From the NCBI RefSeq assembly GCF_001724815.1, contig NZ_MEDO01000021.1:1-39985 (forward strand): a stretch of 39,985 bases of DNA, given 5' to 3'. Below, piece by piece: positions 5,189 to 36,046 of the stretch; the stretch's first letter is position 1, and each line of letters opens with the position of its first letter. Source of the stretch: Arenimonas sp. SCN 70-307 (GTDB lineage Bacteria; Pseudomonadota; Gammaproteobacteria; Xanthomonadales; Xanthomonadaceae). Under the pieces are notes generated by a model. That model had not been told where the DNA came from. It searched no databases and saw only the letters and a program-made list of their open reading frames with translations. Both the position numbers and the translations under genes were made by a program.

Positions 5189-6496
5189 ATGGGATCCACG
5201 CTCACCCGTACCACCCCGGGGCCCCGCCCTACCCACCCGCGCCGTGGCGCGCTCCACGCTTTGGCCTTGGCGACACTGCTTGTGTTCGCGCCGGCGACCT
5301 TTGCCGACACACCGCTTCCCGGCGCCGATGTCGCGTCCGTGCGGGCCTGGCTGTTGGCCAACAACCCGGACTTGCAGGCAATGCAGGCCGAGGCAGAAGC
5401 AGCCGAGGCACGCATCTACCCCGCTGGCGCCCTGCCCGACCCGATGGTCGGCATCTCATTGCAGGGGATCAACCCTGATCGCCCGAACTTACTGCCCGGT
5501 AACGTCGGGTCGGCGACCTACAGCGTGAAACAGCCTATCCCGCTATGGGGCAAGCGCGGGTTGGCCCGCGACGTGGCGCGACAGCAGGCTGACGCCGTCC
5601 AGCTGGAGCGGGAAGCCGCGGCGCTGAGGTTGCTGGCGCAGGCGGAGCAGGCCTATGTGCGCTACTGGCATGCCCGCGAGGGTGTGGCCGTGGTTGACCG
5701 GCTGATCGAACTGTTGGCGCAGATGGAAGAGGTTGCCCGGGTACGGTACGCCTTGGGCGTCGCGGCCCAGCAGGATTCCATCCGCGCGCAGGTGGCCCGC
5801 ACCGCGATGCAGCGCGAACGTATCGAGCGCCTGGCTATCCGTGAAGAGGCCGTGGCCATGTTGAACGCCACCCTCGGCCGGCCGGCCGACGCCCCCTTGG
5901 CCGAGCCGACCGGCGAGCCCGTGCTGGCCGTGCCGGCCGCTTCGCTCGGCGAAGCGCTCGGCCTGCTGGCGGAGGCCCGGCATCCTGCCTTGCGGGCCAG
6001 TACGGCACTGGCTGGGGCGGCCGATACGGCGGCGCAGCTCCAGCGCCGCCGCCGTTTGCCTGATCTCACGCTCGGCGTGGGCGTCATGCAGCGCGATGAT
6101 CGCGTCGACGCCTACGAGGTGATGCTCGAAGTGGAGATCCCGCTACAGCGGCGTGCGCTGCGTGAGCGAGAGCGTGAGGCCCTGCTGATGAGGGACGCCG
6201 CAACGGCGCGTGCCGAGGCGATCGGTACCGAGCTGCAGGGCCAACTGGGCCAGGCGTGGGCCCAGACCCGGAGTGCACGCGAGCAGCGCCGCCTGATCGA
6301 GCAGACATTGTTGCCGCAGGCGCAGGCCAACTTCGAATCCGCCCTCGCCAGCTACCGGGTCGGCGACGTCGACTTCGGCACCTTGTTGGAGGCCTTGGAG
6401 GCCTGGCAAGGCGCTGATCTGTCGCGCGTGGATGTCCGTCGTAATGAACTCGTTGGCGCCGCTACGGTGCGCGCCCTGATTGGGAGTGTCGAATGA
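5189..6496 (+). CDS. cusC: Outer-membrane efflux channel (TolC/CusC-CzcC family)
   Basis: 435-residue outer-membrane factor of a tripartite RND heavy-metal pump. A signal peptide occupies roughly residues 18-39 (ALHALALATLLVFAPATFAD). The mature part has the two-repeat coiled-coil pattern of TolC-type channels: NPDLQAMQAEAEAAEARI with LPDPMVGISL in the first half and RHPALRAS...LPDLTLGVG in the second. VKQPIPLWGKRGLARD is typical of the CzcC/CusC group. Start ATG 5189 gives a normal leader. The stop overlaps the ATG of the adaptor gene (ATGA), so the three pump genes are translationally coupled. Symbol assigned from the CusA type of the pump gene; CzcC-like is an alternative name. Confidence 0.85.
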   Translation: MGSTLTRTTPGPRPTHPRRGALHALALATLLVFAPATFADTPLPGADVASVRAWLLANNPDLQAMQAEAEAAEARIYPAGALPDPMVGISLQGINPDRPNLLPGNVGSATYSVKQPIPLWGKRGLARDVARQQADAVQLEREAAALRLLAQAEQAYVRYWHAREGVAVVDRLIELLAQMEEVARVRYALGVAAQQDSIRAQVARTAMQRERIERLAIREEAVAMLNATLGRPADAPLAEPTGEPVLAVPAASLGEALGLLAEARHPALRASTALAGAADTAAQLQRRRRLPDLTLGVGVMQRDDRVDAYEVMLEVEIPLQRRALREREREALLMRDAATARAEAIGTELQGQLGQAWAQTRSAREQRRLIEQTLLPQAQANFESALASYRVGDVDFGTLLEALEAWQGADLSRVDVRRNELVGAATVRALIGSVE

Positions 6497-7845: not shown

Positions 7846-7846
7846 C

Positions 7847-10800: not shown

Positions 10801-11008
10801 GGGCCTGCTGCCGATCATGTGGAGCACGGGCACCGGCTCGGAGGTCATGCGGCGCATTGCCGCGCCGATGGTCGGCGGCATGGTCTCGTCCACGATCCTG
10901 ACCCTGGTCGTGATCCCGGCGATCTATGCGCTGGTCAAGCGTCGCGAGTTGCTGGGCCCCCGCGCCCAGCCCCTGCCGGTCGCTGATATGTCGGAGACGG
11001 CGCGATGA
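7847..11008 (+). CDS. cusA: Heavy-metal RND efflux pump, CusA type
   Basis: 1053-residue inner-membrane proton/metal antiporter of the HME-RND family. It has the normal twelve-helix, two-large-loop layout: first helix WSVRNVFLILVMAI, loop with GVGWVYQYVL and DLRAIQDWY-like signature, then TM4 AIGAMVDAAIVMIENAHKH with the charged Asp at 402, and the C-terminal AETGVVMLIYLDHA and STGTGSEVMRRIAAPMVGG. The ENAHK signature in TM4 is that of monovalent-cation (Cu/Ag) pumps. ATG 7847 is taken because GGGAGGG lies just upstream and the protein then starts MLARLIEWSVRN as in the family. It is the last gene of the cus operon; a GC hairpin follows at 11128. Confidence 0.93.
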   Translation: MLARLIEWSVRNVFLILVMAIAVTAAGIYAVAKTPLDALPDLSDVQVIVFTEVPGQAPQVVEDQVTYPLTTAMLAVPKSKVVRGFSFFGASFVYVIFEDGTDIYWARSRVLEYLNFASKKLPEGVTPTLGPDATGVGWVYQYVLEGEQWSLDQLRAIQDWYVRYQLTKAPGVAEVASVGGFVRQYSVTVDPGRLRQYGIPLSRVSEVIASSNRDVGGRVLEMAETEYMIRGRGYLRGIEDIEQLVVKAEDGTPVLVGDLARVELVPDERRGVTELNGEGEAVGGIAVARYGENALSVIEGLKEKIAEIGPGLPEGVSIRAVYDRSDLIHRAIATLRWTLFEESLIVALVCIVFLFHVRSALVAIIMLPVGVLIAFLAMRLLGMNSNIMSLGGIAIAIGAMVDAAIVMIENAHKHIERDDGTKPRIQLIIDACREVGPALFFSLLIITVSFLPVFALEAQEGRLFHPLAFTKTFAMAGGALLSVTLVPVLMLLFVRGKILPEAKNPVNRFLIAIYRPVIAVVLRHKAATLVLALVALLGTAWPAARLGSEFMPTLNEGTLLYMPASLPGMSVTKAAELLQQQDRIIKTFPEVESVFGKAGRALTATDPAPLEMFETVINLKPEEQWREGMTIDKLIAEMDTALQFPGVANSWTMPIKARTDMLATGIRTPIGIKVFGTDLGEMERLAKEIEAAVRTVPGTTSAYAERLTGGFYLDIEPDRRQLARYNLPVGELQDVIAAALGGEMVTTTVEGRERFGVIVRYPRELRDSPQSIAQQVLVPTMDGAQIPLGELADVTVRKGAPSIRTENALLSAYIYVDTRDPDMGAYVRAAQEAVANSVTFPPGYYATWSGQYEYMQRAIAKMKIVVPVTLSLIFLLLYLNFRRVTESLIVMLSVPFALVGGVWLMWALDYNLSVAVAVGFIALAGVAAETGVVMLIYLDHALEARAQARRAKGEALTLADITDAIVEGAVERVRPKMMTVVAIMAGLLPIMWSTGTGSEVMRRIAAPMVGGMVSSTILTLVVIPAIYALVKRRELLGPRAQPLPVADMSETAR

Positions 11009-11305: not shown

Positions 11306-11346
11306 TTGACCTAGGTCAAAGCCAGGGATCACGAGAGGTGTAGGGT
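11306..11346 (+). promoter_or_regulatory. Perfect FNR/ANR-like palindrome and -10 box, second copy
   Basis: TTGACCTAGGTCAA (11306-11319) is a perfect 14-bp palindrome of the TTGAC-N4-GTCAA type. TAGGGT (11341-11346) lies 21 bases downstream and the start codon at 11357. Spacing matches the copy at 4594 within one base, in an otherwise diverged leader. A GTCAATTGAC palindrome (11301-11310) overlaps the left half. Confidence 0.55.
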
Positions 11347-11966: not shown

Positions 11967-11997
11967 TTGACCTGTGTTCGACACACAGGTTTACGGT
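11967..11997 (+). promoter_or_regulatory. MerR-type promoter with 19-bp spacer dyad
   Basis: -35 TTGACC (11967-11972), a 19-bp spacer and -10 TACGGT (11992-11997). The spacer carries a perfect dyad, ACCTGTGT (11970-11977) and ACACAGGT (11983-11990) around TCGAC. The overlong 19-bp spacer is the hallmark of MerR-activated promoters. It lies 28 bp before the merR-family gene at 12025 and reads in the same direction, so the regulator controls itself and the genes behind it. Confidence 0.75.
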
Positions 11998-12024
11998 CTC
12001 CGGACGGTTCTGCGGGAGCATGCA

Positions 12025-12540
12025 ATGACGGCCGACCTTCGCAAATCCGATCCGCCGATGACGGTGCGCCGTCTGGCGCACTTGGGAGGCGTGACCGTGC
12101 ACGTGGTGCGCAACTACCTGCGCCGCGGCCTGCTTCGCGCCGCCAGCCACACCGAGGCCGGCTACCAGTTGTTCTCGACCGCGGAACTGCATCGCCTGCA
12201 TTTCATCCGCACGGCGCAGCGTCTCGGCTTCACCCTCGCCGAGATCGAGGAAATCCTACGGCGCAGCCGCCAGCGCAAGAGCCCATGTCCGCTGGTACGC
12301 GACATCATCAGCCGTCGGCTGACGGAAACCCGCGACCAGCTCGAGCAACTCCTGGCGCTGCAGACGCGAATGGAGCAAGCCGTTGCCCAGTGGTCTCGCC
12401 TGCCCGACGCCGTGCCGACGGGCAGTGACGTCTGCGCGCTGATCGAGGCCGTCGCGGCCAGCGAGGCCGCCGCCGTTCCCAAATCCACCTCGCGGCGCCT
12501 CTTGGGCCGTCGCGCCTCTGCAGAGGAAAAGACCTCATGA
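12025..12540 (+). CDS. MerR-family metal-responsive regulator (first gene of array)
   Basis: 171-residue MerR-type protein: winged-helix N-terminus (TVRRLAHLGGVTVHVVRNY, LRRGLLR, GYQLF), then HFIRTAQRLGFTLAEIEEIL, a dimerisation helix (about 89-122) and a metal-binding end. Only two cysteines are present, C88 before the long helix and C137 near the end. The position that carries a Cys in mercury MerR is a Trp (W123), so it is not a standard three-Cys mercury sensor. ATG 12025 has GGGAG six bases upstream. It is codirectional with the operon, behind the dyad promoter at 11967, and its stop overlaps the next ATG. Likely inducer Cu, Ag or another soft metal, undetermined. Confidence 0.8.
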   Translation: MTADLRKSDPPMTVRRLAHLGGVTVHVVRNYLRRGLLRAASHTEAGYQLFSTAELHRLHFIRTAQRLGFTLAEIEEILRRSRQRKSPCPLVRDIISRRLTETRDQLEQLLALQTRMEQAVAQWSRLPDAVPTGSDVCALIEAVAASEAAAVPKSTSRRLLGRRASAEEKTS

Positions 12541-12821
12541 CGCGGCCCCGTCAATCCCCCTTGTCTTGCGGGCTGTCGCTGTCGGTAACGGCGGTCCTGC
12601 TGTACCTGGCCTGCACGCTGATCGTGGCGTGGTCCCCCGGCGCCCTGGTCGCCGGCCTGGGCCTGGTCGTGCACGGACTGAGCCTGTCCGGCCTCACGCC
12701 GGCGGTCGGTGAACTGCGCTGGAGCGCGGTGCTGATCGGTTCGCTCGCGATCGCCGGTTACGCCTTCGTGGCGGGCGCCTTGTTCACCATTGTCAATCGC
12801 TTGATTGGAGGTAACCGATGA
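12537..12821 (+). CDS. DUF5676-like small membrane protein
   Basis: 94-residue protein with two membrane segments (about residues 12-48 as a long hydrophobic stretch, and 60-86). LSLSVTAVLLYLACTLIV, the middle LSGLTPAVGELRWSA and GYAFVAGALFTIVNRL resemble DUF5676 proteins found beside metal P-type ATPases and mer genes. Role unknown. It overlaps merR by ATGA at the start and the next gene by ATGA at the end, so it is firmly part of the operon. Confidence 0.6.
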   Translation: MTRPRQSPLSCGLSLSVTAVLLYLACTLIVAWSPGALVAGLGLVVHGLSLSGLTPAVGELRWSAVLIGSLAIAGYAFVAGALFTIVNRLIGGNR

Positions 12822-13063
12822 ACCGCTCTAACGTTTCCCTGCTGCTCGCGAGCCTGTTCGCGGCCCCGTTGGCCGTCGCCGCACCGCCGGAGACCGACGA
12901 GCCGACCGACGACACCCCGGTGATGCTGATCACCTATGTGCGCCTGGCGATCAACGAGGAGCACGAAACCCGGGCACGCTTTGGCACGGCGTATGAGCAG
13001 TACGCGGACGCGGTGCCGCGGTTCTTCCCACGCCGTCGCCGGCCGCTGGCGGTGGCGTCATGA
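12818..13063 (+). CDS. Signal peptide joined to the tail of an isoprenylcysteine-methyltransferase-like protein
   Basis: 81 residues: a signal peptide ([20 protein letters not shown]), a short acidic linker ([10 protein letters not shown]) and a C-terminal piece, [20 protein letters not shown] then [11 protein letters not shown]. That last piece matches the cytoplasmic tail of ICMT/PEMT-type membrane methyltransferases (pattern EE...FG..Y..Y...VPRF.PR), which are often neighbours of metal ATPases. The catalytic membrane body is absent, so it is probably a deletion fusion of two genes. GGAGG seven bases before ATG 12818 and ATGA overlaps on both sides show that translation coupling has been kept. 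Any function of the chimera is unknown. Confidence 0.5.
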
Positions 13064-15486
13064 GCACCGCCATGAACACTCAGGCGGTAAGGGTCTGGCC
13101 GATCGGCGACATGCTGACCGAGGGCTGCGCCCGCACGCTGGCCGCCACGGTTCGCGGGTTGCCGGGCGTGCAGGCCGCCGAAGCCAATTTTGCGGTCGGC
13201 ACGCTTCAGGTGCGCTATACCCGCGGCGCTGCGGAGCCGACGGCGATTACGGCGGCGATTCGCGCTTGCGGCTTCACCTGCCGCGCCCCGTCCGCCGAGT
13301 TTGTCCCGCCAGGCGCCTCCGCCGGGTCGGCCGCCAGTCACTCTGCACATGCCGGCCATGCCCCGTCGCCCTCCCCCGCAGCGTCGGCCCTCCCTGAGGA
13401 CGCGACGCCGTCGATGCAAGGGCACGCGGGCCATGCGCCCGTCGCGCCGGACAAGCGCGGCGCGGACCCGCACGAGGGCATGCACCACGGGGGCGATTTG
13501 CACGCGGCGGCGGCGGACATGCGCCGGCGCTTCATAGTCGCCTTGGCGTTCTCCATCCCGCTGTTTATCTGGTCCCCGATGGGGCTGATGAGCGCGCCGG
13601 CGACGCCATTCGGCCTAACTGAGAACGTCTGGCTATGGCTGCTGGCCAGCGGTGCGCTGCTCTACCCGGGCTGGCCCTTCTTCACGGCCGCGATCCGCTC
13701 GCTGCGCCGTGGCGTCCTCGACATGGCGGTGCTGGTGTTGCTCAGTGTCGGCACGGGCTATGTCTTCAGTCTGGGCGCGACGTTTGTGTTCGATGGCCCC
13801 AACTTCTACGAGGCTTCCTCGGTCCTGCTGACCTTCATCCTGCTGGGCCACTGGCTTGAGATGCGGGCCCGCGCCGGTGCCTCGGATGCCATGAAGGCCC
13901 TGCTCAAACTCTCGCCGCCGCGGGCGATCGTGCGTCGCGACAATGTCGACGTGGAGATCGCCACTGACGACGTGCAGGTGGGCGATGTGGTGGTCGTGCG
14001 TCCCGGCGCCAAGGTGCCGGTCGACGGCGAGGTGCTCGAGGGCCAGTCCCAAGTGGACGAGTCGATGCTCACCGGCGAGTCGATGCCGGTGAAGAAGGCG
14101 CCGGGCGCTCTGGTGGTTGGCGGCACCATCAATCGCAGCGGCGCCTTCACTTACCGCGCCACCAAAGTCGGCGCCGACACCGCGCTTGCCCAGATCATCC
14201 AGTTGGTCCAGGCCGCCCAGAATTCCAAGGCCCCGGCCCAGCTGCTGGCCGACCGCGCCTCGCAATGGCTGGTGCTGGCGGCGATCGTGATCGGCTTGCT
14301 GACGTTCGCCGTCTGGTTCTGGTGGCTCGGTCAGACGCTGCTGTTTGCGCTCACCCTGACGATTACGGTGTTCGTGATTGCCTGCCCGGATGCGCTGGGC
14401 CTGGCAACGCCCATGGCGATCATGATTGGTACGGGCCTTGGGGCCCGCCACGGCATCTTGTTCAAACATGCCGAGGCCATCGAGCAATGCGCCCGGCTCA
14501 ACGTGGTGATTTTCGACAAGACTGGCACCTTGACGGTGGGACAACCCGACGTGGTGGATACCGTGGCGGCGGCGGACTGGGACCAGGCGCGCTTGATCGA
14601 GGTTGCGGCCGCCGTGGAGGCGCATTCCGAGCACCCGCTGGCACAGGCGATTCTCAAGCACGCCGGGCCGGTCACGGATCGCGCCACCGATTACACCAAT
14701 ATCGACGGCCAAGGCGCGATGGGTCGGGTGGGCGGGCGCTGGGTGCATCTGGGCAACCGCTTGCTGATGGCCGCGCAAGGCGTGGCCGTGGACGAACTGG
14801 AGGCCCAGGCCGACGGACTCAAGGGCGCCGGCCGCACCGTCATCTACGTGGCGGTCGATCGGCGCTTGGCAGGCGTCATCGCGATTGCAGACGCCATTCG
14901 GCCAACCTCGCGGGCCACCATCGAAGAGCTGCATCGCCGCAATATCCGGGTCGCCATGATCACCGGCGACAACCGCCCGACGGCCGAGCGTGTGGCGGCC
15001 GACCTGGGGATCGACATCGTGCTCGCGGACGTGTTGCCGGGCGACAAGGCCGCCGAGGTCAAGAAGCTCCAGGCCCAGGGCCTGAAGGTCGGCATGGTGG
15101 GCGATGGCGTCAACGATGCCCCAGCCCTGACCCAAGCCGAGGTCGGCTTCGCGATCGGCGCCGGTACCGACGTGGCGATCGACAGCGCCGACACGGTGCT
15201 GATGCGCAGCGACCCCTATGACGTCGTGCGGGCGATCACGATCGCCCGCGGGACGCTGCGCAAGATGCACCAGAACCTGGCGTGGGCGGTGGGCTACAAC
15301 GTCCTGGCGTTCCCGCTGGCCGCCGGTGTGCTCTTCCCGTTCGTGCTCTCGCCCGAAATCGCCGCGCTGTCGATGTCCGGCAGCTCGGTGATCGTGGCGG
15401 TCAATGCGCTGTTGCTCAAGCGTCTCCCCTTGGCCGCGGCTGCGGCCGAGTCGTCCCCCGAGTCCCTCAAGGAGTCCCTGTCATGA
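13060..15486 (+). CDS. P1B-type metal-exporting ATPase with CPD motif
   Basis: 808-residue heavy-metal P-type ATPase. Order: a degenerate HMA domain (residues 8-72) whose CxxC is replaced by MLTEGC (only C23 left); a His/Met-rich linker (about 90-150, [23 protein letters not shown]); membrane pairs; actuator TGES; the transport helix motif C442-P-D444 ([11 protein letters not shown]), where Cu(I) pumps have CPC; phosphorylation site DKTGT with D486; SEHPLA with the nucleotide His; TGDN; GDGVND; and final helices with YN and MSGSS. The last two match Cu(I) pumps, but CPD is unusual. Export from the cytoplasm is expected; the metal is open (Cu, Ag or other). ATGA overlaps tie it to the genes before and after. 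Confidence 0.9.
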
Positions 15487-15881
15487 ATACCGTCCCTGTT
15501 TCCTCCCGTACCCCGATCCTGCGCGGCCGAGCCCGTCGCTGGCTGGGTCTGGGCGTGTTGATGCTGGCCTTGGCCGGCACCGCCCACGCCGAAGAAAGCG
15601 GCTTCCGGCATGAGGTCCTGATGCGCGGTCAGATACTCGAGGCCCGCTCGGGCGCGTTGGTCGTCTGCGTGGGCGAGGCCGATGGCGCCCAGGTCGGGCA
15701 GGTGCTCGACGTCGTGCGCCACAAGCGGGTCTCCCGCAGTCCCAAGGCGGCCGGTGCCCGGTTCCGTCGCGAGCCGGTCGGCCAAGTGCGGATCACGGAG
15801 CTGTTCGATACGCACTACGCCCAGGCCCAGGTGGTCACCGGCAAGCCCAAGGTCAACGACACCGTTGAACTGATCCGCTGA
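15483..15881 (+). CDS. Exported small beta-rich protein of unknown function
   Basis: 132 residues with a signal peptide ([20 protein letters not shown]). The mature domain ([30 protein letters not shown], then [22 protein letters not shown] and [10 protein letters not shown]) has the alternating beta pattern of the small barrel at the C-terminus of FlgT-like and related envelope proteins. I do not recognise a specific family. It overlaps the ATPase gene by ATGA and its own stop overlaps a downstream ATG as TGATG, so it belongs to the same mRNA. A periplasmic partner for exported metal is possible but only inferred from position. Confidence 0.55.
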
Positions 15882-16000
15882 TGAACGAACGGCGCCTGCG
15901 GCAGCGTTGGCCGGCCCTGGGGGCTGGCGATGCAGCCGCAGGGGCCTGGCCGCGGAACCGCCTGCCCCGGGCGGCCCCTTACCCCACAAGGATTCCCCTC

Positions 16001-17392
16001 ATGTCTTCCCCTGCGTCCCGCTCCCTGCATTTCCTCGGCGCCGCCGGCACCGTCACCGGCTCTCGCTATCTGGTCCAGGCGGCGGGTCAACGCATCCTGG
16101 TCGATTGCGGCCTGTTCCAGGGCTACAAGCAGCTGCGCGAGCGCAACTGGGCGGATTTTCCGGTCGCGCCCGCGTCCATCGACACGGTGCTGCTGACCCA
16201 TGCCCACCTGGATCACGCAGGCTATCTGCCGGCCCTGGTCAAGCAAGGCTTCGCTGGACGGATCCTTTGCACCGAGGCCACGCGCGATCTGAGCCAACTG
16301 CTGCTGCCCGACAGCGGCCATCTGCTGGAGGAAGAAGCGCGCTACGCGAAGAAGAAGGGCTACTCCAAGCACGCCAATCCGCTGCCGCTGTACACCCAGG
16401 AAGATGCGATGACGTGCCTGACCCGATTCGATGGCCGCCCGTTCCTGGAGCCGCAGGCCCTCGCGCCGGGCGTCAGTGCCCGGTTCATCCCGGCCGGCCA
16501 TATCCTGGGCGCCGCCCAGATTGCGCTGACCATTGACGGTCGCCGCCTGCATTTCACCGGCGACCTCGGCCGCGCCAGTGACGCGCTGATGAAAGCCCCG
16601 GCGCCGTTCGAGGGTGCGGACGTGCTGGTGTGCGAGTCCACCTACGGCAACCGCCGACATCCCACCGCCGACGCCGAGGCGGAGCTCGCGCCCGTGATCA
16701 AGCGGGTCGCCGCCCGCGGCGGCGTCATTGTCATTCCCGCCTTCGCCGTCGGCCGGGCCCAGGCCCTGATGCTGCATATCGCCCGGCTGCGTCAGCGCGG
16801 CGAGATCCCGCGCGTGCCGGTCTATCTCAATAGCCCGATGGCAATCAATGCCACAGACCTCTACCACCGCCACCATGACGAGCACCACGTGACCGACGCC
16901 GAGTGCCGGGACATGTTTGAGCTGGCCACCATGGTGCGGACCGTGGAGGAGTCCAAGGCGCTCAATATGCAGCGCGGGCCGATGATTATCATCTCCGCCA
17001 GCGGCATGCTCTCCGGTGGGCGCGTCCTGCATCACCTGGTGGCGTTTGGCCAGGACTCGCGCAACGCAATCCTGCTGGCCGGCTACCAGGCCGGCGGCAC
17101 CCGGGGCGCGGCGCTGGTGCGCGGCGAGAAATCGTTGCGCATCTTCGGGCAGGAGGTGCCGATCCAGGCCGAGGTCGTGGCCATGGAGAGTTTCTCTGGC
17201 CACGCCGACAGCGAGGAACTGCTTGCCTGGCTGCGCCCGGCCCCGGTCACGCCCAAGATGACCTACATCACCCATGGCGAACCCGACGCCGCCGATGCCC
17301 TGCGCGGCCGGATCGAGCGCGAGCTCGGCTGGCACTGCCGCGTCCCTGAGCATCTGGAACGGGTGCCGCTCGGCGGCGAGGCGGCGGCATGA
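16001..17392 (+). CDS. MBL-fold beta-CASP RNA exonuclease-like protein
   Basis: 463-residue metallo-beta-lactamase protein of the beta-CASP (CPSF73/Ysh1-like) group, which cut RNA with two zinc ions. Motifs: VDCGLFQG; HAHLDH at 67-72 (motif 2); GHILGAAQI; TGDLGR; ESTYGNR; then the beta-CASP insert, SASGMLSGGRVLHH and SGHADSEELLAW. Length is normal for bacterial members. ATG 16001 has AAGGA eight bases upstream and gives the family N-terminus (LHFLGAAGTVTGS). A longer start at 15881 overlaps the previous stop as TGATG and cannot be excluded. The stop overlaps the phosphorylase ATG. In this operon it may feed nucleotides to the phosphorylase; RNA as substrate is from the family, not shown here. 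Confidence 0.85.
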   Translation: MSSPASRSLHFLGAAGTVTGSRYLVQAAGQRILVDCGLFQGYKQLRERNWADFPVAPASIDTVLLTHAHLDHAGYLPALVKQGFAGRILCTEATRDLSQLLLPDSGHLLEEEARYAKKKGYSKHANPLPLYTQEDAMTCLTRFDGRPFLEPQALAPGVSARFIPAGHILGAAQIALTIDGRRLHFTGDLGRASDALMKAPAPFEGADVLVCESTYGNRRHPTADAEAELAPVIKRVAARGGVIVIPAFAVGRAQALMLHIARLRQRGEIPRVPVYLNSPMAINATDLYHRHHDEHHVTDAECRDMFELATMVRTVEESKALNMQRGPMIIISASGMLSGGRVLHHLVAFGQDSRNAILLAGYQAGGTRGAALVRGEKSLRIFGQEVPIQAEVVAMESFSGHADSEELLAWLRPAPVTPKMTYITHGEPDAADALRGRIERELGWHCRVPEHLERVPLGGEAAA

Positions 17393-18900
17393 CCGAGCAC
17401 GCCCACACCCGCCTGCGCGTGGTGCGCGCCGGCATCGATACCTACCAGCAGCCGGTGGTCTATATGCACCGCGACTGCCCCGTCTGCCGCTCGGAGGGCT
17501 TTGCGGCCCTGACCCGGGTCCAGATGCGGGTCGGGACACGCGAGGTCATCGCCACCCTGAACGTCGTCACGGGCGATCACCTGGCGGTCGATGAGGTGGC
17601 GCTGTCGGACGCGGCTTGGCAGGCCGTAACGCCCGAGGCCGGCGCCTACGCGACGTTCCAGCATCCCGAGCAGGCCGCTTCGGCCGGCGCCCTGCGCGCC
17701 AAGGTGTTCGGGGCGCGGCTCGACGACGCCGACTGTCTCGCCCTGATGCGCGACACCGCCGCCAACCGGCTCTCCGACATTGAGCTGGCGGCGTTTGTGA
17801 CCGCCTGCGCTGGCGAGCGCTTGGACCACGGCGAAACGATCGCCCTGACCCGGGCCATGGTGGCGGTCGGTGAGCGCCTGGACTGGGGCGGCGGTCCGGT
17901 GCTGGACAAGCACTGCGTGGGGGGGCTGCCAGGCAATCGCACCACCCCGATCGTGGTCGCGATCATCGCGGCGCTGGGGCATCGCATCCCCAAGACCTCG
18001 TCGCGGGCGATCACCTCCCCGGCCGGCACCGCCGACACGATGGAGGTGATGGCCCCGGTGGCGCTGGATTTGGCGGCGATGCGGCGGGTGGTCGAACGCG
18101 AGGGCGGCTGCATCGTCTGGGGCGGCAATGTGCGCCTGAGTCCGGCCGACGACGTGCTGATCCGGGTCGAGCGACCGCTGGACTTCGACAGCGACGGCCA
18201 ACTGGTCGCCAGTGTGCTGTCCAAGAAGGTGGCCGCCGGCGCGAGCCAAGTGCTGATCGACATGCCCGTTGGGCCCACCGCCAAGGTGCGCTCGGACGCG
18301 GCGGCGCAGGCGCTGGCAGCACGACTGACCGTCACCGGATCCGCGATGGGCCTGAACCTGGCGGTCTTGCACACCGATGGTCGCCAGCCGGTCGGCATGG
18401 GCATCGGCCCGGCGCTGGAGGCCCGCGACGTGCTGGCCGTGCTGCGCGGCGCGCCCGGGGCCCCGGCCGACCTGCGCACGCGGGCTTTGGCCGTCGCCGG
18501 CGCTTTGCTCGAGCTCGCGCCCGGCACGCCGCCCGGTCAGGGACCGGCCCTGGCCACGCAGGCATTGGACTCGGGTCGCGCCTGGGCCAAGTTCCTGGCC
18601 ATCTGTGAGGCGCAAGGCGGCTTCAGCGAGCCGGGCGAAGCACCCTTCCAGGCGCCGGTAGTGGCCCCCCGTGCCGGGCGCATCGCCGCGATCGACAACC
18701 GACGCCTGGCCAAGGTGGCCAAGTTGGCCGGCGCACCCGGCGCGGCCTTGGCCGGCGTCGTCTGCACGTTGCGCATCGGGGATCCGGTCGTAGCCGGGCA
18801 ACCGCTGTACACCGTGCACGCCCAGTCCCCCGGCGAGCGCGACTACGCCTTGGCCTACGCCCAGACCCACACCGACATCCTGTCCCTGGAGGCCCCATGA
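17389..18900 (+). CDS. Type-2 thymidine phosphorylase / AMP phosphorylase-like
   Basis: 503-residue nucleoside (or NMP) phosphorylase. The extra N-terminal domain (about 1-85) and total length match archaeal AMP phosphorylase and bacterial type-2 thymidine phosphorylase rather than short DeoA. The phosphate-binding region reads KHCVGGLPGNRTT (174-186), instead of the KHSTGG of E. coli DeoA, followed by TSSRAITSPAGTADTMEV, IVWGGNVRLSPADD and SKKVAAGA. Archaeal relatives split AMP with phosphate into adenine and ribose-1,5-bisphosphate; bacterial ones are annotated as thymidine phosphorylase without firm proof. It sits between the RNA nuclease and PRPP synthetase, overlapping both by ATGA, a context that favours ribonucleotide degradation. 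Substrate unproven. Confidence 0.85.
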   Translation: MTEHAHTRLRVVRAGIDTYQQPVVYMHRDCPVCRSEGFAALTRVQMRVGTREVIATLNVVTGDHLAVDEVALSDAAWQAVTPEAGAYATFQHPEQAASAGALRAKVFGARLDDADCLALMRDTAANRLSDIELAAFVTACAGERLDHGETIALTRAMVAVGERLDWGGGPVLDKHCVGGLPGNRTTPIVVAIIAALGHRIPKTSSRAITSPAGTADTMEVMAPVALDLAAMRRVVEREGGCIVWGGNVRLSPADDVLIRVERPLDFDSDGQLVASVLSKKVAAGASQVLIDMPVGPTAKVRSDAAAQALAARLTVTGSAMGLNLAVLHTDGRQPVGMGIGPALEARDVLAVLRGAPGAPADLRTRALAVAGALLELAPGTPPGQGPALATQALDSGRAWAKFLAICEAQGGFSEPGEAPFQAPVVAPRAGRIAAIDNRRLAKVAKLAGAPGAALAGVVCTLRIGDPVVAGQPLYTVHAQSPGERDYALAYAQTHTDILSLEAP

Positions 18901-19814
18901 GCCGCGTGCTGATCCCCTTTCCCGATTTGCAGCCGCTGGCGGTGGATTTGGCGGCGCGTTTGAACGCCCGCGTGGCACCCGTGGGCTGGCGCCGGTTCCC
19001 CGACGGGGAATCGCTGGTGACGCTCGACCGCCAACTCAGCGGAGTCGACGTGGTGGTGGTGGCCGGCCTGAGGAACGTGGACTCGGTGGCGCTGGCGCTG
19101 CGCTTTGTCGCCGAGACCGCCCGCGAGCTGGGCGCCCGTTCGGTCGGCCTGGTCGCCCCGTACCTGCCCTACATGCGCCAGGACACGCGCTTTCATCCCG
19201 GCGAAGCGATCAGCGCGCCGATCTTTGCCCGGTTCCTGGAGCAAAGCGTCGACTGGCTGGTGACGGTGGATCCGCACCTGCACCGCAATCCGCGCCTGGA
19301 CGGGTTGTTCTCGATCCCGACCCGCCATGTCGCCGCGGCGGCGGCGATGGCGGCCTGGGTGCAGGCCAACGTCCCCGACGCGATCTTGATCGGTCCCGAC
19401 AGCGAATCGGCGCAGTGGGTTGGCGATATCGCCGCGCGGGCGCAGGTGCCGTTCCAGGTGCTGGCCAAGATCCGGGAGGGCGATCGCTCCGTCCGGGTGA
19501 GCCTGCCCGATCCCGTCGCCGCTCGCGGCCGCACGCCCGTGGTGGTCGATGACATCGTCTCCTCGGGCCATACGATGATCGAAACCCTCAAGCATCTGGC
19601 CACGCTGGGGTTGCCCCCGGCGACGTGCCTGGTCACCCACGCGGTCTTTTCCGAGGACGCCTACGAGCGCCTGCTCGCCGCCGGCGCCCGGCGCGTCGTC
19701 AGCACCGACACCATTCCCCACCCGGCCTGCAATGCCATTGCGATGGCGCCGGCGCTGGCGGTGGCCTGCGAGGCCCTGCTCGCCGAGCGCACCCCGTCCC
19801 TGGCCGCCCCGTGA
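18897..19814 (+). CDS. prs: Ribose-phosphate pyrophosphokinase (PRPP synthetase)
   Basis: 305-residue PRPP synthetase-like protein joining ribose-5-phosphate and ATP to give PRPP and AMP, or the reverse. Motifs: FPDGES (34-39), YMRQDTRFHPGEAIS (ATP/ribose-5-P region, 92-106), VDPHLHR (124-130, metal and catalytic His) and the PRPP loop VVVDDIVSSGHT (215-226). It is shorter and more divergent than housekeeping Prs, lacking the classical regulatory flag residues, so it is probably a specialised second copy. ATG overlaps the phosphorylase stop (ATGA). Pairing with a nucleotide phosphorylase suggests pentose phosphate recovery rather than nucleotide biosynthesis, which is inference. A 40-bp gap follows before phosphoketolase. 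Confidence 0.85.
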   Translation: MSRVLIPFPDLQPLAVDLAARLNARVAPVGWRRFPDGESLVTLDRQLSGVDVVVVAGLRNVDSVALALRFVAETARELGARSVGLVAPYLPYMRQDTRFHPGEAISAPIFARFLEQSVDWLVTVDPHLHRNPRLDGLFSIPTRHVAAAAAMAAWVQANVPDAILIGPDSESAQWVGDIAARAQVPFQVLAKIREGDRSVRVSLPDPVAARGRTPVVVDDIVSSGHTMIETLKHLATLGLPPATCLVTHAVFSEDAYERLLAAGARRVVSTDTIPHPACNAIAMAPALAVACEALLAERTPSLAAP

Positions 19815-19854
19815 GCCGCGCCGTCCACCGCCCCATCTGTGCCCTGGAGTTTCG

Positions 19855-22317
19855 ATGAACGACCTAACCTGCCCCGCCAGCGCCATCAGCGCCATTGACC
19901 AGCACCGGATTGACCAGTTGGCCCGGCGCTACGCCCAGGCCGAGCCGGCCTTCGCCGCGTGGGCCGCCGGCTATGGCGTCATCACGCACACGCCGCTCAC
20001 CCAGCTGCGCGTGCGCGCCATGCTCGAAGAGTTGGTCGCCACTGGCGCGCTGCCGGATGCAGAGACCGGCTATAGGCGCCTGAGCGCGGCCGATCGCATT
20101 GCCAGCGCGGGCATGTGGCTGGTGGCGCATATGACCTACGCCCAGCGTGTCCGGCTCGATGGCAGTCCGATGGCCGCCGAGGACTTCAAGCCGCAGCCCG
20201 AAGGCCATACCGGCGGCGCGTTGAACATGGTGCCGGCCTACACCGGTTACCTGGCGATGAATGCGCTCGATGGCCGGACCCGCGCCTGGATGATGGGCCA
20301 GGGCCACTGCGTGGCGGCGATCGATGCGCTCAACGTGATCGTCGACAACATGAGCCCGGCGCATGCGGCCCGCTATGGCCTGGATGAGCCGCGGCTGGCG
20401 CGATTCGTGGGCGACTTCTACTCCTATGCGCTCACGCCCGAGGGGCGGCCGGCCTCGCCGCTGGGCTCGCACGTCAACGCCCACACCGCCGGCGGCCTGC
20501 AGGAAGGCGGCTATCTGGGCTTTGCCGAGCTGCACTACGTGCACGCGCCGCTGCCCGGTGAGCGGCTGGTCGCGTTCGTCAGCGATGGCGCCTTCGAGGA
20601 GCAGCGTGGCGGCGACTGGGCGCCGCGCTGGTGGCGCCCGGACGATTCGGGCTTGGTCGCGCCCATCATGATCCTCAACGGCCGGCGCATCGAGCAGCGC
20701 AGCCAGATCGAACAGCAGGGCGGCGAGGACTGGCTGTATCGCCACCTGCGGCTCAATGGATTCGAACCCATCGGCCTGGACGGGCGCGATCCGGCCAGCA
20801 TCGCCTGGGGCATCCATGTCATCGAGTCGCGGCTGCAGGCCTGCACCGAGGCGGCCGCGCTGCATCCCGAGGGCGATTTCCGAATCCCGCTGCGCTACGG
20901 TGTCGCCGAGGCGCCCAAGGGCTTTGGGTTTCCCGGCGCCGGCACCAACGCCGCCCACAACTTGCCGCTATCGGGTAATCCCCACCGCGATGCGGCCGCC
21001 CGCGAGCAGTTCAATGCCGGCTGTGCGCCGCTCTACGTGCCGCCGGCGGATCTGCAGGCGGCGATTGCGGCTCTCAATACACACGCGACTCAGGGTCGGC
21101 CGCGCGAGCGCGACCACGCGCTCGCGACCCGCCAGGTGGCGCTGCCGACCGTGCCCGAGCCGGCCTGGGCGGAGCCCGGCACGATTGGCTCGCCGATGGC
21201 CGCTCTGGATGGTCAGTTTGTTCGCTTGGTGCAGGCCAACCCGCAGCTGCGCCCGCGCGTGGGTAATCCCGATGAGTTGCGCAGCAACAAACTCGACGCG
21301 ACCCTGGACCTGCTCAAACACCGGGTGCAGGAGCCGGAAGCCGGCGTCGCAGAATCGCGCACCGGCGCTGTAGTCACCGCGCTCAACGAGGAGGCGGTCG
21401 TTTGCGCGGCGCTGGCGAACAAGGGCGGACTCAACCTGGTGGTGACGTACGAGGCCTTCGCCCCGAAGATGCTGGGCGCCTTGCGCCAGGAACTCATTTT
21501 CTCCCGGCATCTGCGCGAGGCCGGGCGGCCGCCGGGCTGGCTGGGCGTACCGGTGGTGCTGACGTCGCACACCTGGGAGAACGCCAAGAACGAACAGTCC
21601 CACCAGGACCCGACCCTGGCCGAGGCGCTGCTGGGCGAAATGGCGGACGGCGCCCGCGTGTGTTTCCCGCCGGACGGCAACAGCGCCATGGTGGCCCTGA
21701 CCCATAGCCTGCGGGCCCAGGGCACGATCACGGCGCTGGTGGTGCCCAAGCGCGAGGTGCCCAATCGTTTGACGCCGGCGCAGGCGCGCCTGCTCGCCGA
21801 GGAGGGCCTGCTCTTGCTGCACGGCGACCCCGACACCGCCGCGGTGCTGCTGGCCGCCACCGGCAGCTACCAGCTGGGGGAAGTGTTACGGGCGCATCAG
21901 CGACTTCAATCGTCGGGGATCGCCACGGCCGTCATCTATATCGGCGAGCCAGGGCGGCTGCGGGCCGGACGCGATGCACGGGAAACCGCCTACGTGCTTT
22001 CTGATGCCTTGGTGCTGCGCCATTTCCCGGTCGGCACCCCACGCGTGTTCGTGACCCATACCCGGCCCGAACCCTACCTGGGCGCGCTTCGGCGGATCGA
22101 TACCGGGCCCGCCACGACGCGGGCACTGGGCTTCGTCAACCAGGGCGGCACGCTGGACGTGCCAGGGCTGCTGTTCGCCAACGGCTGCACCTGGGCGCAT
22201 ACGGTCGCGGCGGCGCTGGCAGTGCTGGGTCGCCCCCTCAATGACGGATTGCGGGCCGACGAGCAAGCCGCCCTGGCCGGCCGCGGCGACCCGACCCTGA
22301 TCACGCGCCCGGCATGA
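19855..22317 (+). CDS. xfp: Divergent phosphoketolase (XFP family)
   Basis: 820-residue thiamine-diphosphate enzyme of the phosphoketolase family, which splits xylulose-5-P or fructose-6-P with phosphate into acetyl phosphate and a shorter sugar phosphate. Recognisable: EGHTGG (116-121), GQGH (148-151), SHVNAHTAGGLQEGG (205-219), PIMILNG, VGNPDELRSNKL, and SHTW...SHQDP (571-586). It departs from classical enzymes where GDGEAETGP would stand: here SDGAFEEQRGGD (243-254). The normal SH-x-APETPG is also altered. It is therefore a separate subfamily that may use a different substrate. ATG 19855 has GGAG seven bases upstream. The stop overlaps the UbiB-like gene (ATGA). Acetyl phosphate would be used by acetate kinase two genes downstream. 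Confidence 0.8.
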   Translation: MNDLTCPASAISAIDQHRIDQLARRYAQAEPAFAAWAAGYGVITHTPLTQLRVRAMLEELVATGALPDAETGYRRLSAADRIASAGMWLVAHMTYAQRVRLDGSPMAAEDFKPQPEGHTGGALNMVPAYTGYLAMNALDGRTRAWMMGQGHCVAAIDALNVIVDNMSPAHAARYGLDEPRLARFVGDFYSYALTPEGRPASPLGSHVNAHTAGGLQEGGYLGFAELHYVHAPLPGERLVAFVSDGAFEEQRGGDWAPRWWRPDDSGLVAPIMILNGRRIEQRSQIEQQGGEDWLYRHLRLNGFEPIGLDGRDPASIAWGIHVIESRLQACTEAAALHPEGDFRIPLRYGVAEAPKGFGFPGAGTNAAHNLPLSGNPHRDAAAREQFNAGCAPLYVPPADLQAAIAALNTHATQGRPRERDHALATRQVALPTVPEPAWAEPGTIGSPMAALDGQFVRLVQANPQLRPRVGNPDELRSNKLDATLDLLKHRVQEPEAGVAESRTGAVVTALNEEAVVCAALANKGGLNLVVTYEAFAPKMLGALRQELIFSRHLREAGRPPGWLGVPVVLTSHTWENAKNEQSHQDPTLAEALLGEMADGARVCFPPDGNSAMVALTHSLRAQGTITALVVPKREVPNRLTPAQARLLAEEGLLLLHGDPDTAAVLLAATGSYQLGEVLRAHQRLQSSGIATAVIYIGEPGRLRAGRDARETAYVLSDALVLRHFPVGTPRVFVTHTRPEPYLGALRRIDTGPATTRALGFVNQGGTLDVPGLLFANGCTWAHTVAAALAVLGRPLNDGLRADEQAALAGRGDPTLITRPA

Positions 22318-23921
22318 ACACCTCTCAACCAAAGCCTGCCTCGCGCCTGCCCCGCAGCCTGCAGATCGCCGTTGCCTTGGGCGGCTTCGGCTGGACTTGG
22401 TGGCGGCGCCATCGGCGCGCCCCGGAAAGCCTGCCGGCGCGCCTGCGCGAAACCCTGGAAGGCTTGGGGACGACCTTCGTCAAGCTGGGCCAGGGATTGA
22501 GCCTGCGCCGGGACCTCTTGCCGGCCCCGTACCTGGTCGAGCTGGAGGCCTTGCACGCCCACGTGCCGCCGTTCGAGTCGGCGTTGGCGGTGGCGGCGAT
22601 CGAGTCCGCGTTCGGCCAGCCCGTGGACCAGCTGTTCGCCGAGTTCGAGCCCGTCCCCTTCGCCGCCGCGTCGGTCGCCCAGGTGCACCGGGCCCAACTG
22701 CCGGACGGGCGCACGGTCGCGGTCAAGGTACGCCGGCCCGGCATCGTGGCCCAGGTGCATGCCGACCTGCGGCTGCTGCGGCGCTTCGTGCGGGTTTGCC
22801 AATGGCTGCTCCCCGGCCTGCGGCGCTACCAGCCCCTGGACCTGATCGAGGAGTTGGGGCAGTTCCTGCACCAGGAAATCGACATGGTCCAGGAGGCACG
22901 CAACATGCGGCGTCTGGCCAGCACGCTCGATCCCCTGCCCTACCTGACCTTGCCGCACGTGGTGGAGCCGCTGGTCGCCCCGGCGGTGATCGTGCAGGAG
23001 TTCAGCCACGGCGCGCCGCTGGCGACGCGCAATCGCACGCCGCGCGGCCGCGACCTGGCCGGCCTGCTGCTCGATGCCTACGTCCACCAGCTGATGGGGG
23101 CCGGCGTGTTTCATGCCGATCCGCATCCGGGCAACTTGTTTGAACTCCCGGACGGTCGCCTCTGCTTTCACGACTTTGGCTCCATCGGCTACTTGGACCC
23201 GGCAGCGCGCACCGCGTTCGCGCAACTGATCGAGGGCCTGGTGGTGGACGATGCCTCGGCGGTGCTCGATGCCGTGGTGGCGATGGGGTTCATTCAGGGC
23301 GCGATCGATCGACGGGCCTATGTGCGCGCCATCAGTGAAATCCTCAGCAGCCTGGCCACCCTGCCCCTCAACGAATGGTCCATGGCTGATGCGATCTGGC
23401 GGGTGGCGCGGATCGGGGCGGGCGCGAACTTCCGGCTGCCCCGTCATCTGCTGGTCCTGATGCGCACGCTGTTCCTGGCCGAGAACACGCTGCGGGGCCT
23501 GGACCCGGATCTGGACCTGATGCAGGCCCTGGGCGCCCGCGCCCAACGCATGGTCCAGACTTTGCAGCAGCAGGCGGGCGGGCGGCCGATGCATGAGCAA
23601 CTGCTCAAGAGCGCCGAGCAGCTGCCGGTCGTGGCGATGCAGATGCTTCGGCAGCTGCAACTGGACGAAGGGCGGCCCGCGCTGTCGCTGCACCATCGCG
23701 GCCTGGAGCCGCTGGAAACGACGCTGGCGCGCACCGGCAATCGCCTGGCCTTGGCGCTGGTGACGCTGGGCCTGTACCTGGCCGGGTCGGTGATGATGCT
23801 GCACGGCGCCGGGCCGCGCCTGTGGGGCCATCTGCCGGTGCTCTCGGGGCTGGCGTTCGCGGCCGCGCTCGTGCTGTCCTGGCGGCTGGTGCGCGCCATC
23901 TCGCGCTCGGGGCACCTATGA
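22314..23921 (+). CDS. UbiB/ABC1/ADCK family atypical kinase
   Basis: 535-residue membrane-linked kinase-like protein. Motifs: KLGQ (57-60) with LSLRRDLLP, the family's KxGQ; Ala-rich nucleotide loop FAAASVAQVHRA (117-128); VAVKV with Lys 139; catalytic-loop HADPHPGN (267-274); DFG (287-289). Two C-terminal membrane helices (about 475-525) complete the UbiB layout. Family members support ubiquinone biosynthesis or lipid/quinone handling, usually next to ubi genes; none are here. It lies between phosphoketolase and acetate kinase with ATGA overlaps on both sides, so it is an integral part of the array. Start at 22314 is set by the overlap. What it phosphorylates or hydrolyses here is unknown. 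Confidence 0.85.
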   Translation: MNTSQPKPASRLPRSLQIAVALGGFGWTWWRRHRRAPESLPARLRETLEGLGTTFVKLGQGLSLRRDLLPAPYLVELEALHAHVPPFESALAVAAIESAFGQPVDQLFAEFEPVPFAAASVAQVHRAQLPDGRTVAVKVRRPGIVAQVHADLRLLRRFVRVCQWLLPGLRRYQPLDLIEELGQFLHQEIDMVQEARNMRRLASTLDPLPYLTLPHVVEPLVAPAVIVQEFSHGAPLATRNRTPRGRDLAGLLLDAYVHQLMGAGVFHADPHPGNLFELPDGRLCFHDFGSIGYLDPAARTAFAQLIEGLVVDDASAVLDAVVAMGFIQGAIDRRAYVRAISEILSSLATLPLNEWSMADAIWRVARIGAGANFRLPRHLLVLMRTLFLAENTLRGLDPDLDLMQALGARAQRMVQTLQQQAGGRPMHEQLLKSAEQLPVVAMQMLRQLQLDEGRPALSLHHRGLEPLETTLARTGNRLALALVTLGLYLAGSVMMLHGAGPRLWGHLPVLSGLAFAAALVLSWRLVRAISRSGHL

Positions 23922-25045
23922 GCGCGCCGCGCGATGTCCTGACGATCAACGTCGGCTCGGCCACCGTCAAGGCGGCGTACTACGCGATGGATGCGCAGGG
24001 CGTCCTGATCACGCCGGCGGCCCGCGCCAAGATCGCCGTGCTGCCCGAGGATGCGCATGACGCCCGCAGTGCGGACCGCTGGCTGTCGCAGTTGCTGGTG
24101 CAGCTGCCGGCCAGGGCCGGGCAGCCTTCGCGCGTGGCGCACCGGGTCGTGCACGGCGCGGCCCGCCCGGGTCCGGCCCGCGTCACCGAGGCATTGATGA
24201 CCGAGCTGACGGCGCTCACGCCGTTGGCGCCCCTGCATCAAGGCCCGGCCCTGCGGCTGATCGATGCCGCCCGGCACCGCTGGCCGGGGGTGCCGCAGGT
24301 GGCCGCTTTCGACACCAGTTGGCATGCGACCCTCGCGCCGTGGGCCCGGCGCCTGCCGGTACCGGCGAGCCTGCATGCGGCTGGCGTGATGCGCTACGGC
24401 TTCCACGGCCTCGCCTTCGCCTCGGCCGTGCGCCAACTCTCGGCGCTGGCCCCGGCGCTGGCGCAGGCGCGGCTGGTGCTGGTGCACCTGGGCGGTGGTT
24501 CCAGCCTGTGCGCGGTGGCCAACGGCCGCAGCGTCGATACCACCATGGGCATGACGCCCCTGGACGGGGTGCCGATGGCGACCCGGTCGGGCAGCCTCGA
24601 CCCCGGCGTCGTGCTGTACCTCGCGCAGACACGGCACATGCCGCTGCCCCAGATCGAACACCTGCTCTGGCGCGAGTCCGGCCTGCGGGGGCTGTCGGGC
24701 GGCAGTGGCGACATGCGCGAACTGCTGGCCGATACCAGTGAGTCGGCCGGCCACGCCCGGGCGCACTACGCCCTTCGAATCGCGCAGGCCGTCGCGGCCA
24801 TGGCGACCAGCCTCGGCGGGGTGGACGCGATCGTGTTCTCGGGTGGCATTGGCGATGGCGCCGCGCCGATCCGGGCCGCCGTGGCCGAACGTCTGGCCTG
24901 GATGGGCCTGCGCCTGGACCCGGAGGCCAATGCAGCCGGGGTGGCGCAGATCCACGCGGCCGGCGCGGCGATCTCGGTCTTCGTTGTCCGGGCCGACGAA
25001 GAGCAGGAGCTGGCGTTGGCGGCGCTGGCGGAGCCAACGCCATGA
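23918..25045 (+). CDS. ackA: Acetate kinase
   Basis: 375-residue ASKHA-fold kinase converting acetyl phosphate and ADP to acetate and ATP. Active-site elements: N11 (TINVGS), HRVVHG (75-80), APLHQ (usually APLHN), FDTSWH with D132, YGFHG with H163, HLGGGSS, MTPLDG and TRSGSLDPG with R223. The magnesium-binding GGIGE is GGIGD (D313), a conservative change. Slightly shorter than the typical 395-400 residues. ATG 23918 overlaps the UbiB stop and the gene's own stop overlaps the next ATG. Together with phosphoketolase it forms the phosphoketolase-acetate kinase pair that yields one ATP per pentose cleaved. Confidence 0.88.
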   Translation: MSAPRDVLTINVGSATVKAAYYAMDAQGVLITPAARAKIAVLPEDAHDARSADRWLSQLLVQLPARAGQPSRVAHRVVHGAARPGPARVTEALMTELTALTPLAPLHQGPALRLIDAARHRWPGVPQVAAFDTSWHATLAPWARRLPVPASLHAAGVMRYGFHGLAFASAVRQLSALAPALAQARLVLVHLGGGSSLCAVANGRSVDTTMGMTPLDGVPMATRSGSLDPGVVLYLAQTRHMPLPQIEHLLWRESGLRGLSGGSGDMRELLADTSESAGHARAHYALRIAQAVAAMATSLGGVDAIVFSGGIGDGAAPIRAAVAERLAWMGLRLDPEANAAGVAQIHAAGAAISVFVVRADEEQELALAALAEPTP

Positions 25046-25380
25046 GCCGGGCGAGCGCGCCGCAGCGGACGTTGTCCCGGGGTGACCGCGCGCTTCGCGA
25101 TCGGGTCGCGGCGCTGTTGGCGCGGGCCGAGGTGACGCTCGATGGCGATCAGCCGTGGGACCTGCAGGTGCATGACCCGCGCTTCTTCGCCCGGGTGCTG
25201 GCGCAGGGCTCGCTGGGGCTGGGGGAGTCCTACATGGACGGAGACTGGGACGCACCCGCCCTCGACGCCTTGCTGGCGCGCCTGTTGCGCGCCCGGTTGA
25301 ATCACCAGGTGGTGGGGTGGGCCGATCGTTGGGCCGCCGTGCGGGCGCGGCTGATCAACGCCCAAACGCGGCGTCGCGCC
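25042..25380 (+). pseudogene. Cyclopropane-fatty-acid synthase, N-terminal stump
   Basis: About 113 residues match the start of CFA/mycolic-acid cyclopropane synthases: LARAEVTLDGDQPWDLQVHD, FFARVLAQGSLGLGESYMDG, DWDAPALDALL, and RLINAQTRRRA. In intact enzymes RRRA leads directly into the SAM-binding domain with its HYD motif. Here the match stops at 25380 and the frame runs into unrelated sequence that belongs to a TonB receptor in another frame. The ATG overlaps the ackA stop, so the original gene was the last (or not last) member of the same operon. The catalytic domain is missing, so no activity is expected. Confidence 0.75.
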
Positions 25381-25381
25381 G

Positions 25382-36041: not shown

Positions 36042-36046
36042 GCGCT

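Follow-up and report, generated by a model that had tools for sequence, protein, structure and literature searches.

A gene set known from low-oxygen regulons lies behind a MerR-type promoter in a metal-resistance block of Arenimonas sp. SCN 70-307

Contig NZ_MEDO01000021.1 of Arenimonas sp. SCN 70-307 was analysed over its entire length of 39,985 bp (the window; the genome comprises 2.93 Mb in 35 contigs). We found that five genes of a metal-resistance block in this window, predicted to encode a beta-CASP metallo-beta-lactamase (MBL) RNase, a type-2 thymidine/AMP phosphorylase, a phosphoribosyl pyrophosphate (PRPP) synthetase (PRS), a phosphoketolase (XFP) and an acetate kinase (AckA), lie behind a conserved, predicted MerR dyad promoter, and that several loci of the same family without nearby metal genes have FNR-type boxes instead. 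These five products are a known low-oxygen set. The explanation that we favour, tentatively and as something just short of an even call, is that a metal block took in a low-oxygen nucleic-acid salvage module, which would serve there as a metal-triggered emergency energy route. A preliminary description had read the array as a metal-controlled operon that could turn RNA into ATP; this was half right, since the wider evidence appears to support the five genes as belonging together, though under low oxygen; here they lie behind a MerR promoter in a metal block.

Gene array and promoter

Profile searches recovered every gene named in the preliminary description, all of them on the + strand and arranged as described there, from the MerR promoter to a stump of a cyclopropane fatty acid (CFA) synthase gene (11967 to 25379). 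The array starts with genes for a MerR-family regulator with two conserved cysteines (12025..12540; PF13411 and PF09278), a DUF5676 protein with two transmembrane segments (12537..12821; domain match), an 81-aa protein of no family (12818..13063; gene call), a CopA-type P1B ATPase with an HMA domain (13060..15486; TIGR01511 605 bits, cut-off 397) and a 132-aa protein of no family (15483..15881; gene call). It continues with the TTHA0252-like MBL RNase (15881 or 16001..17392; domain and structure-sequence match), the phosphorylase (17389..18900), a divergent second PRS (18897..19814), a phosphoketolase of a distant branch that keeps the catalytic positions (19855..22317; Pfam XFP 137), a UbiB/ABC1 atypical kinase (22314..23921; profile match), an acetate/propionate-type kinase (23918..25045; Pfam PF00871 264.7 over 22) and the 5' stump of the CFA synthase gene (25042..25379).

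Between MerR and the CFA stump there are 11 gene junctions, nine of them ATGA stop/start overlaps, in agreement with the single tightly coupled array proposed earlier. The 132-aa protein gene and the MBL gene share a TGATG overlap if the latter starts at 15881; with a start at 16001, the point where its homology begins, they would be 119 bp apart. PRS and XFP are separated by a 40-bp gap. Such tight packing is, at the level of sequence, strong evidence for one predicted operon. A pattern scan of positions 11000-26000 found one sigma-70-like site, at 19549, against a chance mean of 0.8, and three terminator-like sites on both strands against a chance mean of 5.4; an internal sigma-70 promoter was therefore rejected, the single weak site being no more than expected by chance.

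The MerR promoter that had been proposed at the head of the array was supported by pattern and comparison at 11967..11997 on the + strand, with TTGACC and TACGGT separated by a 19-nt spacer that holds a perfect 8-bp dyad, ACCTGTGT-N5-ACACAGGT, an arrangement that we take to be the target geometry of the MerR family. Among 16 loci with a MerR protein at least 50% identical, of which at least two pairs are the same contig counted twice, TTGAC and TA occur at the same spacing in 15 and the ACCT..AGGT dyad arms in 14; L040, where the MerR match covers only 69 aa, has neither. All 16 aligned MerR proteins, including that of the window, keep two cysteines (in SPCP and VCALIE or close variants), and a third cysteine column is absent among them. 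By its predicted sequence, the window regulator is a thiol-bearing MerR-family protein, a putative metal sensor.

Low-oxygen control of the same genes in other loci

Genes for the same products are listed in low-oxygen studies of other bacteria, including one of the lxa locus of Burkholderia cenocepacia, inside which we presume the MBL gene BCAM0300 to lie. In Bradyrhizobium diazoefficiens, the differential-expression table of a microoxia study contains bll3117 (thymidine phosphorylase family), bll3116 (ribose-phosphate pyrophosphokinase), bll3115 (MBL hydrolase) and bll2518 (phosphoketolase) (PMC6515984), and deletion of fixK2 lowers expression of bll3117, bll3115, bll2518 and bll2517 (acetate/propionate kinase), the predicted operons bll3117-3116-3115 and bll2518-2517 each having a FixK2 motif (PMC9104804). 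The FixK2 regulon thus resembles the window array in holding the same five products under common control, but differs from it in that the set forms two predicted operons under a CRP/FNR-type regulator and in that the passages concerned name no metal genes (PMC6515984, PMC9104804). Similarly, PA3613 (phosphoketolase) and PA3614 (MBL) of Pseudomonas aeruginosa are listed in a denitrification/anaerobiosis table (PMC8575079), and BCAM0300 appears beside universal stress proteins (USPs) and a short-chain dehydrogenase/reductase (SDR) in tables of the lxa study (PMC6127331); unlike the window array, the sets in these lxa and Anr passages are without the phosphorylase-PRS pair and a metal promoter. 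The passages on all three organisms hold no discussion of a pathway (PMC6515984, PMC9104804, PMC8575079, PMC6127331).

Three sets of loci were compared: 26 further loci of the window's own family; a phylum sample of 398 genomes, the window's own included, with 45 phosphorylase places apart from the window in 42 genomes; and a named set, the best 80 of 569 confirmed loci, which resemble the window most and whose counts are biased for that reason. At least five contigs are common to the family and named sets, and at least one to the phylum and named sets. In the family set, 11 loci are without a nearby CopA or CusA gene, 14 have metal genes and one (L056), with too short a match to the phosphorylase, was left out. 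Using the strict pattern TTGAYnnnnRTCAA, which would miss both FixK2 motifs printed for Bradyrhizobium, we found an FNR-type box at most 205 bp upstream of the MBL or phosphorylase gene (distances being taken from where the tblastn match begins rather than from the true start codon) in seven of the 11 non-metal loci and in none of the 14 metal loci. Some of the non-metal loci also carry USPs, an SDR, a Crp/FNR-type regulator, a two-component system and a cation ATPase. The boxes occurred over whole stretches far more often than the mean of permuted palindromes: 45 sites against a mean of 0.7 (largest 17; 59 permutations) in the 26 family loci, 63 against 3.0 (largest 32) in the named set, and 22 against 1.7 (largest 13) in the 45 phylum loci. 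No box lay within 400 bp before the MBL or phosphorylase gene in the 40 metal loci of the named set or in the six metal loci of the phylum sample.

These patterns suggest that the metal promoter of the window is a replacement of oxygen control. The preliminary description had taken metal as the natural trigger; that it was the original one is doubted, because several non-metal family loci have FNR boxes before the same genes and because the set belongs to a low-oxygen regulon in published tables.

Oxygen control might, on the other hand, persist in the window, with an FNR protein bound at 11306 driving a long transcript from MerR to AckA and the metal genes forming part of an anoxia response (Cu(I) being more toxic without oxygen). 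The host genome has two FNR-type proteins with CX2CX5C, the gene of one following hemN, whose frame starts 232 bp after a box site, and nine box sites in total against two for the reversed pattern. Two of the nine lie in the window (4594-4607 and 11306-11319), each before one of two paralogous small metal-block genes; the latter, the palindrome TTGACCTAGGTCAA (11306..11319, found by pattern), precedes a gene for a small secreted protein and does not adjoin the metabolic genes. In three metal loci (L109-L111), MerR is likewise preceded by FNR-like boxes, at a distance of 56-75 bp. We nevertheless consider persisting oxygen control very unlikely, since the site at 11306, the nearest in the window, lies about 4.6 kb before the MBL gene, no FNR-type box, the mark of a locus under FNR, Anr or FixK2 control, was found in front of the module, the metal family loci have none before MBL or phosphorylase, and the MerR dyad is conserved.

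A Variovorax plasmid (L231) carries an oleate hydratase gene (11770-13353) within its metal/phosphorylase cluster, and the fixK2 deletion in Bradyrhizobium also lowers an oleate hydratase (PMC9104804), suggesting that the uptake of low-oxygen genes by metal blocks may not be limited to a single one.

Enzymes and a possible route from RNA to ATP

The closest solved structure to the MBL protein is that of ribonuclease TTHA0252 (252 bits); Cas14 of Type VII CRISPR was rejected as its identity (381 bits against a cut-off of 800, and no PADLOC match). The phosphorylase exceeded the cut-off of the type-2 thymidine/AMP family (TIGR02645, 550.3 bits against 434.6) and has in common with the AMP phosphorylase of Thermococcus (4ga4) the active-site stretch SSRAITSxAGTAD, which is unchanged in all 14 aligned relatives. 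The enzyme may act on nucleoside monophosphates (NMPs). The PRS, the second copy in the genome, exceeded the PRPP-synthetase cut-offs (TIGR01251, 194 against 113; PRK07199, 367 against 322) and keeps the catalytic and substrate motifs K-x-R, FPDGE, RQD and DD. In the alignment, H129, R130 and E170 are present in 105 of 105 operon-linked PRSs and W174 in 104, positions at which the housekeeping PRS on contig C26 has D, Q, G and R; from these invariant residues of its own we infer that the operon enzyme may have changed its substrate or direction. In the phosphoketolase, which matched PF03894 (136.6 bits) and PF09364 (48.4 bits), the positions corresponding to H64, H97, H142, H320, Y501, N549, H553 and K605 of the Bifidobacterium phosphoketolase 3ai7, which we take to be the catalytic residues, were invariant in 13 of 13 sequences, and the enzyme may act on pentose phosphate. 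In the part that could be aligned, the acetate kinase also retains the positions known to be catalytic.

A thiophilic metal bound by MerR would, under the explanation that we favour, induce both metal export and an emergency energy route, since damage by thiophilic metals to iron-sulphur and respiratory enzymes resembles the loss of oxygen. The beta-CASP RNase would release 5'-NMPs, and the phosphorylase would convert these and phosphate into free base and ribose-1,5-bisphosphate (R15P). Since this product is not ribose-5-phosphate (R5P), the route from RNA to ATP given in the preliminary description has a hole that was not mentioned there: for the step from R15P to R5P, neither R15P isomerase nor PhnN was found over cut-off in the host genome, other R15P enzymes not having been sought. 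The sole match to the R15P isomerase profile TIGR00511 (187 against 314) is probably, as a guess, an MtnA paralogue, and the best PhnN match (54 against 156) probably a guanylate kinase. The PRS-like enzyme may instead run backwards, AMP attacking the C1 phosphate of R15P to give ADP and R5P in a one-phosphate analogue of the PRS back reaction; alternatively, the back reaction itself would convert PRPP and AMP into R5P and ATP. This R15P phosphotransfer, suggested by chemistry, is the least certain part of the proposed route. RpiA and Rpe, whose genes the preliminary description had correctly noted as missing from the window and which were found over cut-off on contig C14 of the same genome, would then yield xylulose-5-phosphate, from which the phosphoketolase would form acetyl phosphate and the acetate kinase ATP. 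The flow from RNA to ATP, its energy yield and its induction by metal are thus predictions from gene content. A homologous phosphorylase likewise leads nucleotide ribose into central metabolism in the archaeal NMP/pentose bisphosphate pathway (PMC9700705). That pathway consists of AMP phosphorylase, R15P isomerase and Rubisco, whereas no R15P isomerase is over cut-off in the window genome and the ribose would exit via phosphoketolase.

In its boldest form, which we think unlikely, the array would encode a bacterial phosphorolytic fermentation of RNA to ATP, in which the PRS paralogue works backwards as an R15P (or PRPP):AMP phosphotransferase, conserving the bond formed in the phosphorolytic step and passing R5P on to phosphoketolase and acetate kinase; this would be a low-oxygen response in some lineages, brought under a metal sensor in mobile resistance islands, where metal-poisoned cells would eat their own RNA for ATP. 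A search of the literature, with subscription journals mostly outside it, returned no description of the five genes as a pathway or of a metal-linked phosphorylase module. If true, metal resistance would extend beyond export, the island also carrying a power supply for cells with poisoned respiration; the widespread phosphorylase-PRS pair would gain a function; the presence of an RNase-like protein and a nucleotide phosphorylase in a low-oxygen regulon would be accounted for; and one module would have passed from the control of an oxygen sensor to that of a metal sensor.

Recurrence, transfer and rival explanations

In the phylum sample, 43 of the 398 genomes had a protein over the TIGR02645 cut-off. 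Co-occurrence of the RNase, phosphorylase, PRS, phosphoketolase and acetate kinase genes had been put forward as a check. Of the 45 places, 38 had a PRS gene and 19 an MBL gene in the same orientation no more than 3 kb from the phosphorylase gene, and the phosphorylase-PRS(-MBL) grouping recurs across phyla. XFP and AckA, counted over whole stretches, several of which are short because contigs end, were present at only five and four places, so that the phosphorylase-PRS core pair is often found without them. In the named set, whole-stretch counts were PRS 70, MBL 60, CopA 42, XFP 29, UbiB 20 and AckA 15.

The frequent pair, together with the scarcity of XFP and AckA, favours a reading as nucleotide and PRPP recycling, in which the phosphorylase releases bases from surplus NMPs, the PRS runs forward to supply PRPP for salvage and repair, and phosphoketolase and acetate kinase form a separate carbon or acetyl-phosphate route, with no net ATP from RNA; the PRS scores and retained catalytic motifs are consistent with it. 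We consider recycling rather unlikely, however, because the phosphorylase-PRS-MBL and phosphoketolase-acetate kinase groups are under one low-oxygen regulator in the Bradyrhizobium tables (PMC9104804), because PRPP synthesis would cost ATP when ATP is scarce, and because the genome already has a housekeeping PRS, the operon paralogue having its own invariant residues.

A Cu-type ATPase gene (CopA) lay within 9 kb at six of the 45 phylum places against 0.50 expected (p ~9e-6), an expectation drawn from 74 ATPase matches in the 42 genomes, calculated with rounded genome sizes and on the assumption that ATPase genes are placed at random. On a phosphorylase tree of 143 rows, 56 of them with metal neighbours, the metal label needs 19 changes, at least 12 of them by well-supported branches, the tree being a quick one with flagged long branches; the label for XFP as a neighbour (43 rows) also needs 19. 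The nearest rows to the window phosphorylase include Lysobacteraceae and Rhodanobacteraceae. By these comparisons, the metal linkage is apparently partly inherited but recurrent.

The metal-resistance block (CusCBA, MerR and CopA-type ATPase) appears to have spread in part horizontally. In L215, a locus from another family of the same taxonomic order, protein identity to the window is 84-93% from MerR to UbiB, 78% for AckA and 73% for CFA; the chromosomal hemN of the pair is 58% identical. The DNA similarity stops at 25379, where the CFA gene of the window breaks and its frame continues into the tail of a TonB receptor, and L215 matches 363 residues of a complete CFA synthase; the stump described earlier is thus real. 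Among six genomes listed for the same genus, the phosphorylase is present in two, the window's own and G147, whose proteins are identical from MerR through PRS except for one at 99%, with AckA at 81%, DNA identity of 96.6% over 23 kb and hemN at 95%. The phosphorylase was also found (E 1e-60 or better) in 113 of 72,556 plasmid records, 46 of these 113 typed as conjugative. Two of the 113 were inspected: pSinB, a conjugative plasmid of a gold-mine Sinorhizobium, has the phosphorylase-PRS pair next to genes for DUF5676, DUF2933 and a multicopper oxidase. The second, a plasmid of Variovorax that is typed as non-mobilizable, has MBL-phosphorylase-PRS with MerR and a heavy-metal ATPase.

A number of observations, in addition to the scarcity of XFP and AckA in the phylum sample and the FNR-like boxes at 11306 and before MerR in L109-L111, weigh against a metal-triggered energy route. 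The window MerR fell under every metal-sensor cut-off (MerR, CueR, ZntR and CadR; best 74.6 against 150.85) and is without one of the usual metal cysteines, MerR or CueR having a fuller set. Outside the family, the strict box is uncommon close to MBL or phosphorylase: it lies within 400 bp before only one such gene among the 39 non-metal phylum loci and before seven in the 40 non-metal loci of the named set, to which the family loci contribute. The phosphorylase is under the cut-off of the AMP-phosphorylase equivalog TIGR03327 (431.5 bits against 535), the phosphoketolase under every NCBIfam cut-off (best 128 bits against 962) and the acetate kinase under that of TIGR00016 (258.4 against 293.4). 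Of the six CopA neighbours, two lie on the opposite strand and a single one combines the same strand with a distance of at most 3 kb; in L042, L044 and L046, no MerR gene intervenes between CusA and the module that comes after it; and the metal label shows strong clustering on the tree (19 changes against 44 when shuffled). Within the family, block proteins of L031 and L037 are no more alike than hemN (for L031, identity to the window is 75% for phosphorylase, 51% for AckA and 70% for hemN), so that vertical descent is possible there and transfer is clear for L215 only.

The clustering of the label, and the 39 of 45 phylum places at which the module has no metal genes, would fit the alternative that the set is cargo without a role in metal defence, acquired by islands by chance or since metal-rich places are often low in oxygen, with the MerR promoter driving the ATPase and the rest being read through. 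The repeated changes of the metal label on the tree, the excess of CopA neighbours, the several gene orders that retain the metal link and the coupled junctions of the array argue against mere cargo, which seems to us quite improbable.

Upstream of the array, CusCBA-type efflux genes of the resistance-nodulation-division type (5189..11008, + strand; gene calls and profile match) belong to the same metal block, and 33641-36466 holds a MerA mercuric reductase with an HMA domain (986 bits over a cut-off of 600) and, on the strand opposite MerA, a mercury-type MerR (168.7 over 150.85). With CusCBA, CopA-type ATPase, MerR and MerA, the window resembles Cus/Cop/mer metal islands; it differs from textbook ones in its coupled, putative RNA-salvage and acetyl-phosphate module, which to our knowledge is not part of such islands.

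Near-alike long blocks in Burkholderiales and one Pseudomonas (L107, L114, L115, L117, L119, L121 and L122) contain a CopA-type ATPase, MBL-phosphorylase-PRS, UbiB and, on the opposite strand, phosphoketolase; representatives also carry major facilitator superfamily, D-2-hydroxyacid dehydrogenase and GAPDH-like genes. The UbiB/ABC1 kinase accompanies many window-like blocks, and a distant relative occurs in the non-metal loci L034, L052 and L080, with FNR boxes 269-319 bp upstream. Three phylum genomes have two phosphorylase copies, G404 (L204/L206), G447 (L203/L209) and G299 (L210/L215), the L215 copy of the last being in a metal block and the L210 copy outside one. Directly after the CFA break, the window carries a complete Wadjet type I system (JetD, JetC, JetB and JetA; 25790-32423, - strand) with an adjoining WYL-domain gene (32470-33378, + strand).

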